Below are positions 28,840 to 50,540 of a DNA stretch of 64,000 bases, in pieces. Within the stretch, counting starts at the first letter, position 1; the number at the start of each line of letters is the position of its first letter. Source of the DNA: an uncultured Spirochaetia bacterium. GTDB taxonomy: Bacteria > Spirochaetota > Spirochaetia > SZUA-6 > Bin103. The notes under the pieces were generated by a model. The model was not told the DNA's origin. It searched no databases and was given only the letters and a program-made list of their open reading frames with translations. Position numbers and translations under genes: made by a program. The DNA lies in assembly GCA_958296075.1 (NCBI GenBank), contig CATQHW010000002.1, positions 930,001-994,000 on the forward strand. The letters run 5' to 3'.

Positions 28840-29675
28840 CGCGGACCTGGGTACGGGCCGCCGCCGCGTCCTTGCTGGCCCTGGCGGTCGCCGTCTGCGC
28901 GGCCGCCCAGCAGTCGGCGGCCGGCGCGATCGATGCCGCCGCGCTCCTCCGCGAAGCGGCCGAGCTCTATCGAACGGCCGACGAGCTGGAGACCGCCGGC
29001 CGGGCCGGGGCCGCCGCTGAGGCGCTGCGCGGCGCGCTGCTCCGCTACGAGCGGGTCGGCGAGGCGACCGGCTGGAGCAACGGCTTGCTCGCCTACAACG
29101 CCGCCAACGCCCATCTGCGGCTCGGCGACGTCGGCCGCGCCCTGTTAGGGTATCGACGTGCTGCGGAGCTGGTCCCCGGCAACCGCTACGTGCGCCGCGG
29201 CTTGGCTTACGCGCGCCGGCTGCGGGCCGATCGGATCGAGGAGCCGGTGTCGGCCGGCGTCGCCCGCGTCGTGCTGTTCTGGCACGACCTGTTGCCCGCG
29301 CGCACCCGCGCGATCGCTTTCCAGGCGCTCTGGACGGCGTTCTGGGTCGGTTTCCTGCTCCGCATGCTGGCTGCCGGCGTGCGGCGTCGGCGCTGGCTGC
29401 GGCCGGCCGGCGCCGCCTGCCTGCTGCTCGCCGGCGCGCTGGCGGCGTCACTGGCGACGGACGCGATCGACGCCTCGGCGCCCGGCGTGATCACCGCCGC
29501 CTCGGTCGTCGCCCGGCAGGGTGACGGCCATTCGTATGAACCCAGCTTCGGGTCGGCGCTGCACGGCGGCACGGAGTTCCGCTTGCTGGAGGATCGCGGC
29601 GAGTGGTGGCGCATACGGCTGGCTGACGGCCGCCAGACGTGGATCGTCGCCGCCGCGGGGGAACTGGTCCGATGA
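28836..29675 (+). CDS. BatE-like protein: TPR plus C-terminal SH3
   Basis: A 279-aa exported membrane protein: signal LLALAVAVCAAAQ, TPR helices (NGLLAYNAANAHLRLGDV, ALLGYRRAAELVPGN), two membrane helices (about 150-200) and a C-terminal bacterial SH3-like segment GEWWRIRLADGRQTWI. Same layout as BatE. Starts in a GTGA overlap with batD and ends in an ATGA overlap with an enolase-superfamily gene that has no evident link to the Bat system. Confidence 0.85.
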   Translation: MTRTWVRAAAASLLALAVAVCAAAQQSAAGAIDAAALLREAAELYRTADELETAGRAGAAAEALRGALLRYERVGEATGWSNGLLAYNAANAHLRLGDVGRALLGYRRAAELVPGNRYVRRGLAYARRLRADRIEEPVSAGVARVVLFWHDLLPARTRAIAFQALWTAFWVGFLLRMLAAGVRRRRWLRPAGAACLLLAGALAASLATDAIDASAPGVITAASVVARQGDGHSYEPSFGSALHGGTEFRLLEDRGEWWRIRLADGRQTWIVAAAGELVR

Positions 29676-30724
29676 AGGTGACCGACGTGCGCGCCGCCTA
29701 CCCCAGGTGGCGGCAGTTGCCGCCGGCCGATGCGTGGCAGGCGCACTTCTGGCAGATCGCGGTGCGCGTCACCACCGACGTGGGCGTGACCGGCTACGGT
29801 TACGGTGGCGGCGGTCAGCCGGCCGTGCACGTGGTCAACGACCACCTCCGTCGCTTTCTGATCGGGCGGTCGATCGACGACGACGCCACCATCGGCGCCG
29901 CCTGGGACGACCTCTACCGGGTGTCGATCCCCTACGGCCGCGGCGGCGTGGCTCAGATGGCGCTCAGCGGGGTCGATCTGGCGCTCTGGGATGCGCTGGG
30001 GCGCGCCGAGCGGTGTCCCGTGCACCGGCTCATCGGCCCGCGCAGCAAGGGGCGCGTGCGCGCCTACGCCACCGGCGGCGACCTTGAGTTGGCGGCGCGC
30101 TACGGCTACTCGGCGATGAAGCTGTCGCATGACTGGCGCGGCCAGGACGACTTCGACAGTGCCGTCGAAGGGGTGGCGGCGGCGCGCGCGGCGCTGGGGC
30201 CGGCGGCGCAGATCATGATCGACTGCTATATGTCCTGGCCGGTCGGGGTGGCGGCCCGCATGGCCGAGCTGCTGGCGCCGTACGCGCCGCACTGGTTCGA
30301 GGACGTGGCAACGCCCGATCACCTGGGCGAGCTGGCCGCATTGCGCCCGCGCGTCAAGCCGGTGCTGCTGGCCGGCGGCGAGCACGATTACACGCCGGCG
30401 GCGTTCGCGGAGGTCGGCCGCCGCGGCGCGCTCGACCTGTGGCAGCCGGACGTCACCTGGGCGGGCGGCATCACCGGCGCGCTGCGCATCCTGGATCTGG
30501 CGCGCCGGCACGGCGTGCCGGTCGTGCCGCACCGCGGCGGCGAACCGTGGGGGCTGCACCTGATCGTCGCCACCGACTGCATCGACTTGGCGGAGACGAT
30601 GCCGGCGCGCTGGCAGGAGCCGCGCGAGGACCTGTGGATAGGCGAGCCCCAGGTCCTCGACGGCTCGATCGAGCCCGGCGACGAGCCGGGCTTCGGCGTC
30701 CGCCTCAACGAAGCGCTGTTGTAG
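29672..30724 (+). CDS. mandelate racemase/enolase superfamily sugar-acid dehydratase
   Basis: A 350-aa enolase-superfamily enzyme. N-terminal capping domain, then barrel residues: Lys in AMKLSHDW, metal ligands in DCYMSW, WFEDV and GGEHDY, and LWQPDVTWAGG. The GEH and QPDVxWxGG blocks match the L-rhamnonate/galactonate-like dehydratase branch. It removes water from an aldonic acid to give a 2-keto-3-deoxy acid. ATGA overlap with the BatE-like gene puts it in the same transcript. Confidence 0.88.
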   Translation: MKVTDVRAAYPRWRQLPPADAWQAHFWQIAVRVTTDVGVTGYGYGGGGQPAVHVVNDHLRRFLIGRSIDDDATIGAAWDDLYRVSIPYGRGGVAQMALSGVDLALWDALGRAERCPVHRLIGPRSKGRVRAYATGGDLELAARYGYSAMKLSHDWRGQDDFDSAVEGVAAARAALGPAAQIMIDCYMSWPVGVAARMAELLAPYAPHWFEDVATPDHLGELAALRPRVKPVLLAGGEHDYTPAAFAEVGRRGALDLWQPDVTWAGGITGALRILDLARRHGVPVVPHRGGEPWGLHLIVATDCIDLAETMPARWQEPREDLWIGEPQVLDGSIEPGDEPGFGVRLNEALL

Positions 30725-30749: not shown

Positions 30750-32456
30750 TTACGTCACCGGGAGGGCGGACCCCTGCGGCGCTGCGCGGCGGGCGCTGGC
30801 CGATACGGTGCGGTTGAGCGCGGAGATCAGCGCCAGCGCGGACGCCTTGGCGATGTTGGGATGGGTGCCGGCTCCGAACCGCTGCGTGCCGTCGTCGCGG
30901 AGGACCTGGATGTAGGCGATGGCGGTCGAATCGGTGCCCTGGCCCAGGGCGTGCTCTGAGTAGTGGGTGAGCTCGAAGTCGTCCCACCCCGCCTGACCCA
31001 GCGCGCTCTTGAGCGCGTCGATCGGGCCGTTGCCGCTGCCGGACAGATACATCTCCTTACCGGCGATCTCCACGGTGAGGCGTCCGTGGACGAGCGAGCT
31101 GTCCTGCTCGTCGCTGGCGAATGCGTAGTCCAGGAAGCGGATCGGCCGGTCCGCCTCCAGGTACTCCTGCCTGAAAACGTCCCAGATCTCCGCCGCGTTC
31201 ACCTCCCGGCCGGCGCGGTCGGTCAGCTCCTGGACCACCAGCCCGACCTCGGGCTGCATGGTCTTGGGGAGTTGGCAGCCGAACTCGTTCTCCATGACGT
31301 AGGCAACACCGCCCTTCCCGGACTGGGAGTTGATGCGGATGATCGCCTGATAGGAGCGGCCGATGTCGGTGGGGTCGATCGGCAGGTAGGGGACCTCCCA
31401 CAGCCCATCACCCTGCGCGGCCATGCCCTTGTTGATGGCGTCCTGATGGGAGCCGGAGAAGGCGGTGAACACCAGCTCGCCGGCATAGGGATGGCGCGGG
31501 CCGACCGGCAGCTCGGTGCAGGCGTCGGAGACTTCGATCAGGCGGCTCAGATCGCTCAGCTGCAGGCCGGGGTCCACGCCTTGCGTGTATAGATTGAGGG
31601 CGACCGTCACGATGTCGACGTTGCCGGTGCGCTCGCCGTTGCCGAACAGGGTCCCCTCGACGCGCTCGCCGCCGGCCAGCAGGCCGAGCTCGGTGGCCGC
31701 CACGCCGGTGCCGCGGTCGTTGTGGGTGTGCAGGCTGAGGATGATGCTGTCCCGGCGCTGCACGTGGCGCAGGAACCACTCGATCTGGTCGGCGTACACG
31801 TTGGGGGTCGCCAGCTCGACCGTGGCCGGCAGGTTGACGATCATGCGCCGCTCGGGGGCCGGGTCCCACACCTCGATGACGGCGTCGCATACCTCCACCG
31901 CAAAGTCGAGCTCGGTGCCGGTGAAGCTCTCCGGCGAGTACTCGTAGACGACCTCGGTGTCGGTACGGCCGGCCAGCTCGCGGACCAGGCGGGTGCCGTC
32001 GACGGCGATCCGGCGGATCGCGGCGCGGTCCTTGCGGAACACCACGCGGCGCTGCAGCTCGGACGTCGAGTTGTACAGGTGCACGATCGCCTGCGGCGTG
32101 CCTTCGATCGCATCGAACGTGCGCTGGATCAGGTGGTCGCGCGCCTGTGTGAGCACCTGCGGGTAAACGCCATCGGGGATCAGGCCGTGGTCGATGAGCG
32201 TGCGCACGAAGTCGAACTCAACGGCGGCGGCGGAGGGGAACCCCACCTCGATCTCCTTGAAGCCGATGTCGGCCAGCAGCGAGAACATGCTGAGCTTCTG
32301 CTGCAGGTTCATCGGATTGATGAGCGCCTGGTTGCCGTCGCGCAGATCGACGCTGCACCAGATCGGCGCGCGGTCGATGGTCCGGTTCGGCCAGGCGCGG
32401 TCCGGCAGGTCGATCGCCGGGAACGGCCGGTATTTGTCGATGACGCCTTGATGCAT
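30750..32456 (-). CDS. leuA: 2-isopropylmalate synthase
   Basis: A 568-aa enzyme of the long LeuA class: condenses acetyl-CoA with 2-ketoisovalerate, the first step of leucine synthesis. CSVDLRDGNQAL (catalytic Arg-Asp), GFKEIEVGFP, LHTHNDRGTG (metal HxH-like), FGNGERTGNVD, and a C-terminal LeuA dimer/regulatory domain (about 430-560) that binds leucine in family members. Start ATG at 32456 has AAGGAGAT 4 nt upstream. An attenuator with a Leu-rich leader peptide precedes it, so expression is predicted to rise when leucyl-tRNA is scarce. Confidence 0.97.
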   Translation of the reverse strand: MHQGVIDKYRPFPAIDLPDRAWPNRTIDRAPIWCSVDLRDGNQALINPMNLQQKLSMFSLLADIGFKEIEVGFPSAAAVEFDFVRTLIDHGLIPDGVYPQVLTQARDHLIQRTFDAIEGTPQAIVHLYNSTSELQRRVVFRKDRAAIRRIAVDGTRLVRELAGRTDTEVVYEYSPESFTGTELDFAVEVCDAVIEVWDPAPERRMIVNLPATVELATPNVYADQIEWFLRHVQRRDSIILSLHTHNDRGTGVAATELGLLAGGERVEGTLFGNGERTGNVDIVTVALNLYTQGVDPGLQLSDLSRLIEVSDACTELPVGPRHPYAGELVFTAFSGSHQDAINKGMAAQGDGLWEVPYLPIDPTDIGRSYQAIIRINSQSGKGGVAYVMENEFGCQLPKTMQPEVGLVVQELTDRAGREVNAAEIWDVFRQEYLEADRPIRFLDYAFASDEQDSSLVHGRLTVEIAGKEMYLSGSGNGPIDALKSALGQAGWDDFELTHYSEHALGQGTDSTAIAYIQVLRDDGTQRFGAGTHPNIAKASALALISALNRTVSASARRAAPQGSALPVT

Positions 32457-32508
32457 GGTTATCTCCTTTTCCATGATGGCTTTATCCAATAAGGACCTGC
32501 GCCGGCTC

Positions 32509-32561
32509 GAAAAAAAGCCCAGGCCCGCCGGTCGATCGGGTCGACCGTCAAGCCTGGGCTG
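32509..32561 (-). terminator. intrinsic terminator of the leuA attenuator
   Basis: Minus strand: AGCCCAGGC (32560-32552) pairs perfectly with GCCTGGGCT (32524-32516), with an inner GGTCGA/TCGACC stem, followed by a run of seven T (to 32510). It lies between the leader peptide and leuA. The 5' arm can instead pair, with one G-U, with GCCTGGGTT at 32619-32611 inside the leader, forming an antiterminator. Confidence 0.85.
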
Positions 32562-32580
32562 CTTCGTGCCGCTCGGTGCG

Positions 32581-32667
32581 CTACATGCGCGCTCCCGCGT
32601 GGCGCCGGGCAACCCAGGCCGTAAGGCCCAGGAGCAGATCGAGCAGGTTCCTCAGAAGCCGGCGCAT
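32581..32667 (-). CDS. leuL: leuA leader peptide (28 aa, leucine-rich)
   Basis: A 28-aa reading frame starting MRRLLRNLLDLLLGL: eight of the first 15 residues are Leu. It ends 125 nt before leuA and upstream of the terminator. Codons 11-15 overlap the first arm of a CTGGGCC/GGCCTGG hairpin, so a ribosome stalled on Leu codons would free GCCTGGGTT to form the antiterminator. This is the layout of leuL in enterobacteria, although the sequence itself is not related in any obvious way. Confidence 0.85.
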   Translation of the reverse strand: MRRLLRNLLDLLLGLTAWVARRHAGARM

Positions 32668-32678
32668 GTAGGCAATGG

Positions 32679-32707
32679 ACTATACGCATACGCGCGGCGG
32701 TGCGCAA
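32679..32707 (-). promoter_or_regulatory. leu promoter
   Basis: Minus strand TTGCGC (32707-32702), 17-bp spacer, TATAGT (32684-32679). The leader ATG is 11 nt past the -10, so the transcript has only a few untranslated bases before the leader peptide. Confidence 0.65.
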
Positions 32708-32846
32708 CCCCGCCGCCGGCGGGACCGGCGGATTTCGCGTCCGGCTGCGGGGCGGGCGCTCAGGTGGATCTTGTGCTCGCGCGGGCGCTCCGGCCCTTTA
32801 CTCCGCCGGGCTTGATTCGTCCGCGCCAGACTGCGAACGTGCCGGT

Positions 32847-33521
32847 ATGCGCGTGCTTCTCAGTCCGACCGACAGCGATCTGGCGCGGAGCCTGCGCGAC
32901 CGGCTGACCGGCCACGAAGCCGTGCTCGACGCGGGTCATGCGCGGATCGACGGGGAGTCGGGCGCCCGGACGGCGCCGGCTGGGTTCGACGCGGTGGTGG
33001 TGGACGGGCTGCCCGGCGGAGGGGCGTCCGGTCCGGTCGATCCGTTGGCGGCGCTCGACCGCGCGACTCGCCTGACCTATGACCTGCTGCGCGCCGCGGC
33101 CGAGTCCGGGGTGAGTCGCTGCGTATACCTCAGCTCGCTGCGGCTGCTCGCCGACTACCCGGACCACTACACGGTCACGGAGGGGTGGCGGACGCTGCCG
33201 CCGTCCGGCGACCCGGCGCTGCTCGGCTGCCACCTGGGCGAGCTGATAGCCCGCGAATTCGCGCGCGAACGGCGTATGCAGGTGCTGGCGTTGCGGCTGG
33301 GGTACCCGATGGTGCCCGGATCGCGCGACGCTCTGAACGGCGCGCACGGCGGCGCGGCGATCTGCACCGATGACGTGGCCGCCGCGGTCGACGCGGCCCT
33401 CACGGCGCCGGTCAGCCGGTCCTGCACGGTCGTGCACGTCCAGTCCCCTCTGCCGCACCCGCGCTACCTGATGGGCGTCGCCAAGGAGCTGCTCGGCTAC
33501 CCGGAAGGTGGGCCGGCGTGA
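32847..33521 (+). CDS. NAD-dependent epimerase/dehydratase-like protein with degenerate cofactor loop
   Basis: A 224-aa extended-SDR relative. VYLSSLRLL and the later VLALRLGYPM and CTDDVAAAVDAAL segments match epimerase/dehydratase proteins. The N-terminal glycine-rich loop is replaced by LSPTDSDLARSL, and the Tyr-x-x-x-Lys pair is not seen, so cofactor binding or catalysis may be lost. GTGA overlap with the next SDR-like gene suggests the two proteins work together. Confidence 0.75.
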   Translation: MRVLLSPTDSDLARSLRDRLTGHEAVLDAGHARIDGESGARTAPAGFDAVVVDGLPGGGASGPVDPLAALDRATRLTYDLLRAAAESGVSRCVYLSSLRLLADYPDHYTVTEGWRTLPPSGDPALLGCHLGELIAREFARERRMQVLALRLGYPMVPGSRDALNGAHGGAAICTDDVAAAVDAALTAPVSRSCTVVHVQSPLPHPRYLMGVAKELLGYPEGGPA

Positions 33522-34285
33522 AGGTGCTGATCGCCGGCGGCAACGGATCGATGGGGCCGCACGTCATCGCCGCCCTGCGCGGCCGGCACGAGCTGCGCGT
33601 GACCGACGTCACTCCGGCGCCGCCGGGCTTCGCGCACGAGTACCGGCAGCTGGACGCCGGCGACCACGACGGCGTGATCGCCGCCGCGGCAGGCATGGAC
33701 GCGATCGTCAACCTGTCGGTGTCGCGTACCGACCGCCGTGGCGCCTTCGACGCCAACGTGCGCGGCAACTACAACCTCGCCGTCGCCGCCGTGCGGCACG
33801 GCATCCGCACCATCGTCAACACCGGCCCGTACTATCAGGTGGCCGGCCCCGCGTACGACGACTTCGACTTCGGCCTGCATCCCGACCTGCCGCCGCAGCC
33901 GGGCACGCGGCTGTACGCGCTGACCAAGGCGCTCGGCCACGAGGTGCTGCGCGTGTTCAGCGAGCGGCATGACCTGTACGTGCAGACGCTGCTGTTCTAT
34001 CTGATGCGCGACCCGGCCGCGTCCCGCAGGCTGGACGCGAACGACAAGGGCGGCGTAGGGCAGGACATGATCCCGCCGTACATCATCGCGTGGCCGGACA
34101 CGGGGCTGGCGGTGCGCGCCGCGCTGGAGATCGATCGCGCGCGGCTGCCCTCGCGGTGCGAGACCTATTTCGTGCTGCCGGCGGTGCCGCACGGCAAATA
34201 CCGCAACGACAAGCTCGGCCGTGTGCTGGGCTGGGAACCGCCGCACCGGCTGGAGTACCTCTGGATGCGGCGGATCGACCGCTGA
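33518..34285 (+). CDS. NAD(P)-dependent oxidoreductase, extended SDR
   Basis: A 255-aa epimerase-like protein with an intact cofactor motif GGNGSMGPHV (residues 7-16), a NLSVSRTDRR segment, VNTGPYYQ and the active-site Tyr/Lys in YALTKALG. GTG start in a GTGA overlap. Followed 14 bp later by the lactonase with its own good ribosome site; a sugar-oxidising module (dehydrogenase then lactonase) is a reasonable inference. Confidence 0.85.
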   Translation: MKVLIAGGNGSMGPHVIAALRGRHELRVTDVTPAPPGFAHEYRQLDAGDHDGVIAAAAGMDAIVNLSVSRTDRRGAFDANVRGNYNLAVAAVRHGIRTIVNTGPYYQVAGPAYDDFDFGLHPDLPPQPGTRLYALTKALGHEVLRVFSERHDLYVQTLLFYLMRDPAASRRLDANDKGGVGQDMIPPYIIAWPDTGLAVRAALEIDRARLPSRCETYFVLPAVPHGKYRNDKLGRVLGWEPPHRLEYLWMRRIDR

Positions 34286-34298
34286 AGAGGAGGCACGC

Positions 34299-35369
34299 AT
34301 GCGCGTCTACACGGGAAGCTATACCGACCACGACGTGGAGGATCACGGATACGGCCGCGGCATCTATCGCTTCGAGCTCGACACGGACAGCGGCGCGCTG
34401 TCCGGCATGCAGCTTGCGGCCGAGGCTTCCAACCCCAACTTCGTGCTGTTCAGCCGCGACGGCGCGCGGCTCTACTCGGTCGCCGAGCTGGGGACCGGCA
34501 GCGACCCGGCCGGGGCGGCGATCCGCCGGTACGACGTGGACCGCGCGACCGGGGCGCTGGCGCTGCGTTCGGAGGTGGAGATCGGCGTGTCCGGGCCGTG
34601 CCACCTGAGCCTGGATCCGCAGGAACGCGCCGTATTCGCCGGCTGCTATACCGGCGGCGGCGCAGTCATGGTGCCGCTCGGCGGCGCGGGCGAGTTGGGT
34701 GCGCCGGTGCGAACGCTGCATCGGGGGTCGAGCGTCAACCCGGAGCGGCAGGAGGCGCCGCATCCTCACTCGGCGAACGTCACCGCCGACGGCCGCTTCC
34801 TGCACGTCCCCGATCTGGGCATCGACCGCGTGGTCACCTACCGCGTCGAGCACGCCCCGGCGCGCCTGACGCGCATCTGTGACGCGGCGTCGAACCCCGG
34901 CGCCGGACCGCGCCACCTGGCGTTCACTCCGGACGGCGCCTTCGCGTACGTGATGGGGGAGATGGCCTCCACGATCATGGCGTTCCGGTGCGAGCGCGAC
35001 GGCCGGCTCACTCATCTGCAGACCCTCACGTCGTTGCCGGCCGGCTACTCCGGGGAGAACTCGACGGCGGACGTGCGCATGCATCCGCGGGGCCACGTCG
35101 TCTACTGCTCCAACCGCGGCCACGACTCGATCGCGGTCTTCTCGGTCGATCGGCGGTCGGGCGAGTTGACGCCGCTCGGCCACGTGTCGACCGGCGGCCG
35201 CACGCCGCGCGGCTTCAACGTCGACCCGTCGGGCACGTGGCTGTTGGCGGCCAACGAGCAGAGCGGCTCGGTGTTGAGCTTCCGCATCGACGGCGCCGGC
35301 ATGCCGGTCCCGACCGGCGCGTCGATCGACGTGCCGCGGCCCACCTGCGTCGCCTTTGCGCCGGCCTGA
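34299..35369 (+). CDS. lactonase family protein (7-bladed beta-propeller, 6-phosphogluconolactonase-like)
   Basis: A 356-aa YbhE-type propeller lactonase. Opening RVYTGSYT, repeated blade phrases (NPNFVLFSRDGARLY, GPCHLSLDPQERAVFAG, GPRHLAFTPDGAFAYVM) and HPRGHVVYCSNRG are typical. It opens sugar lactones. GAGGAGG precedes the ATG. Last gene of the 32847-35369 unit. Confidence 0.9.
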   Translation: MRVYTGSYTDHDVEDHGYGRGIYRFELDTDSGALSGMQLAAEASNPNFVLFSRDGARLYSVAELGTGSDPAGAAIRRYDVDRATGALALRSEVEIGVSGPCHLSLDPQERAVFAGCYTGGGAVMVPLGGAGELGAPVRTLHRGSSVNPERQEAPHPHSANVTADGRFLHVPDLGIDRVVTYRVEHAPARLTRICDAASNPGAGPRHLAFTPDGAFAYVMGEMASTIMAFRCERDGRLTHLQTLTSLPAGYSGENSTADVRMHPRGHVVYCSNRGHDSIAVFSVDRRSGELTPLGHVSTGGRTPRGFNVDPSGTWLLAANEQSGSVLSFRIDGAGMPVPTGASIDVPRPTCVAFAPA

Positions 35370-50197: not shown

Positions 50198-50337
50198 CCC
50201 GAGCCGCTCCTTCGCCGCTGCTCTGCGCGCAGGGATGACGTCGCCGAACCGACCTGTCCCCCGATCCTGCCGCCGGATCGGGAAAAGGCTCGATCTGAGG
50301 CGCTCCCTGAGCGGAGAGCGGTCACTCAGCCGTGCCC

Positions 50338-50520
50338 GGCAGGTCTCCTGGCTCTCGGCTCGACGCCTGTCCCGCGCCTTCCCATCCGTTCGGGTCCAAC
50401 CCTGTTGTGGACAGTGGCATTTGCGGGCGGCTTACCGGTCACAGTGGCGCCACCGCAGCGGATTCTCACCGCTTTCCCTGTTTCGGCCTTCGTTTCCGAA
50501 AGCACCGGGCAACGTCTGCC
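50338..50520 (-). ncRNA. cobalamin (adenosylcobalamin) riboswitch
   Basis: Minus strand reads GGCAG...CAGGGAAAGCGGTGAGAATCCGCTGCGG...GCGCCACTGTGA...AAGCCG...GCCACTGT...GGGAAGG...GAGCC...CAGGAGACCTGCC. The B12 box (near 50338-50355), the conserved GGTGAGAATCCG block and paired GCCACTG words define class I cobalamin riboswitches. Binding of B12 should reduce btuC translation or transcription. The stretch from 50198 to 50337 between aptamer and gene would hold the expression platform; I could not assign a clear terminator. Confidence 0.92.
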
Positions 50521-50540
50521 TTTCGTGATTGTCGGGCGGT

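Follow-up and report, generated by a model that had tools for sequence, protein, structure and literature searches.

A run of Leu codons, alternative 1:2, 2:3 and 3:4 hairpins and a terminator before leuA make up leuL, the attenuator of the leuABCD operon in E. coli and Salmonella. The window, by which we mean the whole 64-kb stretch of DNA analysed here, contains a leuA gene that is likewise preceded by a short Leu-rich reading frame, which raises the question as to whether a switch of this type operates in a different bacterial background. The host genome (5 contigs totalling 4.05 Mb, with 70% G+C in the window) reads as that of a GC-rich spirochaete, and an earlier note on this DNA, made from the sequence itself, was right in placing the locus in a "clearly different GC-rich background". 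That note proposed that a single leuA is controlled by a leucine attenuator. This is still the best reading, and we conclude that the leuA leader is very probably a classical ribosome-mediated transcription attenuator.

The structural gene is a reading frame of 568 codons, the product of which scores above the curated cut-offs of NF002991 and TIGR00970, i.e. it is a LeuA of the long type. The gene stands alone, because the next gene downstream (29639-30724, plus strand) lies on the opposite strand and the best leuC, ilvB and leuB-like matches of the host genome sit away from leuA. Every attenuator element of the leader is located on the minus strand (Table 1). Like leuL, the leader combines a Leu-codon run, the three alternative hairpins and a terminator before leuA; it differs from leuL in having no Rfam match, in preceding a stand-alone gene for a long-type LeuA rather than an operon, and in its spirochaete host.

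Table 1 Features of the leuA leader and gene, in positions of the window
Feature	Position	Strand	Basis and remarks
Candidate -35, TTGCGC	32702..32707	minus	sequence; weak (3/6)
Candidate -10, TATAGT	32679..32684	minus	5/6, 17-nt spacer; ends 11 nt before leader ATG
Leader peptide ORF, 28 codons + TAG	32581..32667	minus	ATG at 32667, TAG ends 32581; 8 Leu in first 15 residues
Region 1, CCTGGGCC	32625..32632	minus	sequence + folding; overlaps Leu codons 12, 13, 15
Region 2, GGCCTGGGTTGC	32609..32620	minus	sequence + folding; partner of region 1 or region 3
Region 3, GCAGCCCAGGCT	32551..32562	minus	sequence + folding; terminator 5' arm and antiterminator partner
Intrinsic terminator hairpin as folded	32514..32562	minus	folding; -36.1 kcal/mol
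T7 run	32510..32516	minus	sequence
Shine-Dalgarno-like AAGGAG (32468-32463) and leuA ATG (32456-32454)	32454..32470	minus	sequence
leuA, 2-isopropylmalate synthase, long type	30753..32456	minus	NF002991, TIGR00970; HMGL-like, IPMS_D2 and LeuA_dimer domains

The leader peptide, MRRLLRNLLDLLLGLTAWVARRHAGARM, has Leu at codons 4, 5, 8, 9, 11, 12, 13 and 15, and the sequence bears out the 28-codon leader with eight Leu in its first 15 residues that had been reported; the short ORF with a run of cognate codons expected of an attenuator is therefore present. Both strands of the window were scanned for short ORFs (10-60 codons, with 6 or more Leu within 12 codons) that have a terminator 40-250 nt downstream of the ORF start; the leuA leader was the single match. 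The promoter is the weakest part of the case and is only partly supported by the sequence. The earlier note overstated it: TATAGT is a good -10 candidate, but with TTGCGC the pair scores 8/12 jointly, under the 9/12 threshold of our promoter scan, which returned no promoter-like site between 31500 and 34500. For the other three members of the family the best scores go to TTGCCA-18-TAGGTT, TTGTCA-18-TAGGCT and TTGGCA-17-TATATT, with a gap between -10 and leader ATG of 20-22 nt vs. 11 nt in the window; two of the family members (G001 and G002) have an additional in-frame ATG 6 nt upstream of the leader ATG used. With a transcription start ~7 nt past the candidate -10 of the window, the leader mRNA would begin with a very short 5' stretch and be nearly leaderless, so that, unlike in leuL, the candidate start site would lie just a few nt before the leader ATG.

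How could such a leader choose between termination and readthrough? The complementarity is between GCCTGGGTT (32619-32611) and AGCCCAGGC (32560-32552), with the terminator 3' arm GCCTGGGCT at 32524-32516, all on the minus strand. On folding, regions 1 and 2 form a pause hairpin, CCTGGGCC-TTAC-GGCCTGGG, of -13.7 kcal/mol, as had been proposed. The pairing of an antiterminator with the 5' arm of the terminator had, if anything, been understated, since GGCCTGGGTTGC and GCAGCCCAGGCT form a 2:3 duplex of 12 bp and -25.2 kcal/mol. The proposed terminator with its seven-T run is present as well, although not as a 9-bp stem: the 3:4 structure consists of a 12-bp outer and a 7-bp inner helix (-36.1 kcal/mol), and this hairpin and the T7 run constitute an intrinsic terminator between leader and structural gene. 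The hairpins are predicted to be mutually exclusive; in silico, the antiterminator competes with the terminator and a hairpin is available that sequesters region 2, this 1:2 hairpin having been examined in four family members. A generic terminator scan of 31500-34500 listed no site because it permits only loops of 3-8 and uninterrupted stems; a dedicated routine and folding do find the leuA terminator. The AAGGAG of leuA sits past the T-run, outside the stretch that was folded.

We then folded the leader with a ribosome placed at different codons, assuming that a stalled ribosome covers the RNA from 15 nt before to 12 nt after the first A-site nucleotide. With this assumed footprint, a stall at Leu11, 12 or 13 removes the 1:2 hairpin and gives 2:3 pairing of 0.99-1.00 once region 3 has emerged; a stall at Leu15 abolishes 2:3. 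Stalls at Leu4, 5, 8 or 9 leave 1:2 possible until region 3 is out and, for Leu8, 2:3 pairing is just 0.06 at the moment region 3 emerges. Without a ribosome, or with the ribosome at the stop codon, 1:2 forms at 0.97-0.99 before region 3 is made. Before the terminator 3' arm emerges, 2:3 is favoured also without a ribosome (0.92) and with the ribosome at the stop (0.98), and for the complete leader of the window the terminator is favoured at equilibrium for every ribosome position. The leader-folding check suggested in the earlier note thus gives a divided answer: 1:2 is lost in a stall-dependent manner, but the two states are not distinguished at equilibrium. On their own, equilibrium folds such as these do not demonstrate a switch that depends on Leu, and the choice between termination and readthrough would therefore have to be kinetic and set by timing. 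Attenuators usually decide by timing. On the downstream side, ~25 nt separate region 2 from the leader stop codon. A ribosome at the stop would therefore leave region 2 exposed, and occupying it would presumably fall to the 1:2 hairpin. When the RNA of the family members is folded over the stretch that begins with the Leu run and ends with the T-run, the terminator is obtained for the genome of the window (G000) and for G003; for G001 and G002 (loci L003 and L004, respectively), the best structure without a ribosome is 2:3 together with pairing of region 1 to the terminator 3' arm, unlike the leader of the window. When the RNA is folded to just short of the terminator 3' arm, 2:3 pairing is found in all four family members.

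From these data we infer a mechanism that would combine the proposed start site, coupling of ribosome and polymerase, a kinetic choice and dependence on Leu. A promoter just upstream would start a short leader RNA, the Leu-rich ORF of which would be translated during synthesis. When charged Leu-tRNA is plentiful, the ribosome would run through the Leu codons to the stop, allowing region 1 to pair with region 2; with 1:2 formed, the 3:4 terminator would halt RNA polymerase ahead of leuA. When charged Leu-tRNA is scarce, the ribosome would stall on Leu codons, codons 11-13 being the most effective, and cover region 1, leaving region 2 to capture region 3 as it emerges, and leuA would be transcribed.

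The mechanism of the classic E. coli kind is known, and the wide distribution of candidate attenuators of this kind in the class is what the present analysis adds. The earlier note held that relatives keeping leuA while losing both the Leu codons and the hairpins would speak against attenuation, and the opposite is seen. A Leu-rich ORF at the corresponding place and a terminator are present in 4/4 family members (G000 to G003), the antiterminator of G003 being just 6 bp by our detector. For the class we searched a sample of 297 genomes, which gave 99 long-LeuA places in 98 genomes (E up to 1e-100) and, after 3 partial genes had been dropped, 96 upstream regions. With a simple threshold of at least 5 Leu in 12 codons for the leader, the detector called a leader in 66 of these regions, a terminator in 76, both in 64 and, in 42 of these, also an antiterminator of 7 bp or longer; in a few of the 64 cases the leader is doubtful, lying far upstream or being Leu-poor (e.g. 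L145, L162, L174 and L177). Leader plus terminator was called in 0/96 regions in each of five dinucleotide shuffles, in 1/96 on the antisense strand and in 4/492 locus stretches. The antiterminator is likewise more frequent than in 100 shuffles: 57/64 at 6 bp or more (shuffle mean 47.7, maximum 54), 42/64 at 7 bp or more (mean 21.8, maximum 30) and 17/64 at 9 bp or more (mean 3.0, maximum 7). At least one leader with terminator was found in 18 of the 19 sampled families with long LeuA, the exception being f26 with its one region, and this places candidate classical Leu attenuation across nearly the whole set of families. Detector negatives make up 32/96 regions and include 10/12 in family f31 and 14/25 in f29 (both elements in 2/12 and 11/25, respectively); several f29 regions have a terminator and no called leader. 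Family f31 (e.g. L115, L119, L120 and L125) retains long LeuA, mostly without leader and terminator by the detector. With the same detector, 0/10 upstream regions of short-type LeuA had a leader or a terminator.

These counts bear on two other explanations of the leader. Dominance of the terminator in all folded states of the window's complete leader is what one would expect if it were a constitutive 5' terminator, or the end of a small RNA made from the leader, next to an incidental Leu-rich ORF. An incidental ORF would, however, hardly be present in every member of the family, or accompany a terminator in two-thirds of the class regions and in none per shuffle, making this explanation extremely unlikely. 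The leader could also control translation rather than termination, with the Leu codon run altering access to the leuA Shine-Dalgarno sequence. The precedent is the actinobacterial LEU element, for which the accessible text of two reports (PMC1262725, PMC8079986) describes a proposed pseudoknot whose base stem involves the Shine-Dalgarno box; in the same text leuL of Streptomyces lividans is reported as leaderless and LeuL1 as being without a typical terminator, and the Leu-rich leaders of actinobacterial leuA are described as lacking one. As far as that text goes, the spirochaete leader shares with these systems a Leu-rich leader peptide before leuA and, with S. lividans leuL, a possibly leaderless mRNA, but differs from LeuL1 in its clear intrinsic terminator and antiterminator. 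The strong terminator and T7 run between leader and leuA, and the frequency of terminators in the class, make translational control very unlikely and favour transcription attenuation. The terminator found here also sets the leader apart from the LEU element, which is characterised by having no obvious terminator.

As a third explanation we considered a T-box or a leucine riboswitch, which would share with the leader nothing beyond a terminator in the 5' region. The leader region has no Rfam match at gathering score; allowing E values up to 10 gives nine matches, all under their gathering scores and none a T-box, and 18 related loci likewise have no match at gathering score. We regard this explanation as having next to no likelihood, and a T-box, a riboswitch or another known RNA family was discarded for the leuA leader and the 18 related loci on the basis of these Rfam results. 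Elsewhere in the window, a Cobalamin riboswitch (Rfam RF00174, 106.9 bits) is present at 50321-50524 on the minus strand.

The letters of the attenuator core vary by family: GCCTGGG faces CCCAGGC in the host family f1, and CTCGGTAGTG faces CGCTACTGAG in G004 of f2, so the pairing is kept while the letters change. A three-arm pattern is found at a single site, the leuA leader, in each of G000, G001 and G002 and is absent from the other 58 of the 61 genomes searched; it is a narrow test, since G003, which has an attenuator, is among the 58 because its arms differ. A paralogous switch elsewhere in the genome was dismissed, as the pattern in G000, G001 and G002 is found solely at the leuA leader.

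Among the 79 named LeuA loci taken from the best 80 matches of a larger number (L106 was excluded, its match starting at base 1), 14 have a leader and a terminator. Two of these are spirochaete (L032 and L084) and apparently duplicate L004 and L015, with identical called leaders; the other 12, among the matches listed, are from Desulfobulbaceae or close to them, except L040, which is titled only "Proteobacteria bacterium". At 324-447 nt upstream, the ORFs called for L034, L060, L065 and L068 are possibly not leaders. In Desulfobulbaceae and relatives, the same LeuA type is preceded by a Leu-rich leader and a terminator at L036, L038, L039, L042, L072 and L075. Pseudomonas leuA regions (L083, L088, L090, L091, L096, L099-L101, L103, L107 and L110) contain a conserved short ORF resembling MKTxxTLILLRQHRSLCLVSARLPG, and no terminator was called between this ORF and leuA. 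A quick tree built from 66 LeuA proteins, 38 from spirochaetes and 28 from elsewhere, does not recover the spirochaetes as one group, and LeuA of f1 does not join that of f2, a family of the same order. A second tree of 64 rows rejects f1 and f2 together (p-AU 0.0065) and, less firmly, f1 with the main spirochaete group (p-AU 0.030); the groups were picked after the first tree had been seen and a fast model was used, and the tree result is a lead. Because f1 LeuA does not group with f2 of its own order and the f1 attenuator core is unlike that of f2, we tentatively raise the possibility, itself rather unlikely, that Leu attenuators arose repeatedly at this LeuA locus, both in spirochaetes and in other phyla, either with leuA and its switch moving as a cassette or with the switch being re-invented after transfer, and that the one in the window is read from a nearly leaderless mRNA.

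Our literature search, which did not extend to Lopatovskaya 2010 and Vitreschak 2004, came upon no spirochaete leuA attenuator in the text accessible to it. The nearest case is the Leptospira ilvB motif, which the available part of PMC10272879 describes as a candidate leader-peptide attenuator with seven representatives and unconfirmed function; its leader contains a Val-codon run and many branched-chain and Thr residues. As described there, it is similar to the present leader in being a candidate branched-chain amino acid leader-peptide attenuator in spirochaetes, and different in that the gene is ilvB with a Val run rather than leuA with a Leu run. A leucine-rich attenuator peptide is also reported, in the accessible part of PMC5794164, to regulate branched-chain amino acid synthesis in Staphylococcus aureus; it resembles the leuA leader peptide in being leucine-rich, but S. 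aureus is a Firmicute. The authors of a 2010 paper (PMC2965389) state in its available text that they knew of no demonstrated leader-peptide system outside Proteobacteria and Actinobacteria, and add a case from Firmicutes. PMC4833913 counts short leader genes in Spirochaetales, leuA not being named in the text available.

Is leuA the only amino-acid gene of this host with such a leader? The routine found no terminator before leuC, ilvB, the leuB-like gene or hisG of the host genome; two Leu/Ile/Val-rich reading frames precede ilvB, also without a terminator. The trpE gene, on the other hand, is preceded by MTDRSVVSTIDFTRGARVWWWPVE and a terminator, which suggests a candidate Trp-codon attenuator. 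A trpE match is present in 69 of the 98 genomes, and we examined 51 trpE regions (30 loci from the search, the host's own and 20 further ones) for an ORF in which 2 or more of 5 codons are Trp and which is followed by a terminator. Candidate Trp attenuation could be placed in 19 of the 51, compared to 0, 0, 0, 0 and 1 in shuffles and 1 in antisense; a few of the 19, those without a WW run, may be chance matches. WWW leaders also precede trpE in the other three members of the family, where no terminator was called. Together, the leuA and trpE leaders point to spirochaete genes that may be regulated in this way and offer a natural collection in which attenuator evolution can be studied. In the host trpE region (L197, G000:C3:696064-697404, plus strand), the leader with its WWW Trp codons and the terminator span 224 to 110 nt upstream of the gene, and a promoter-like TTGACG-17-TAAGAT, recognised by eye, ends 9 nt before the leader ATG.
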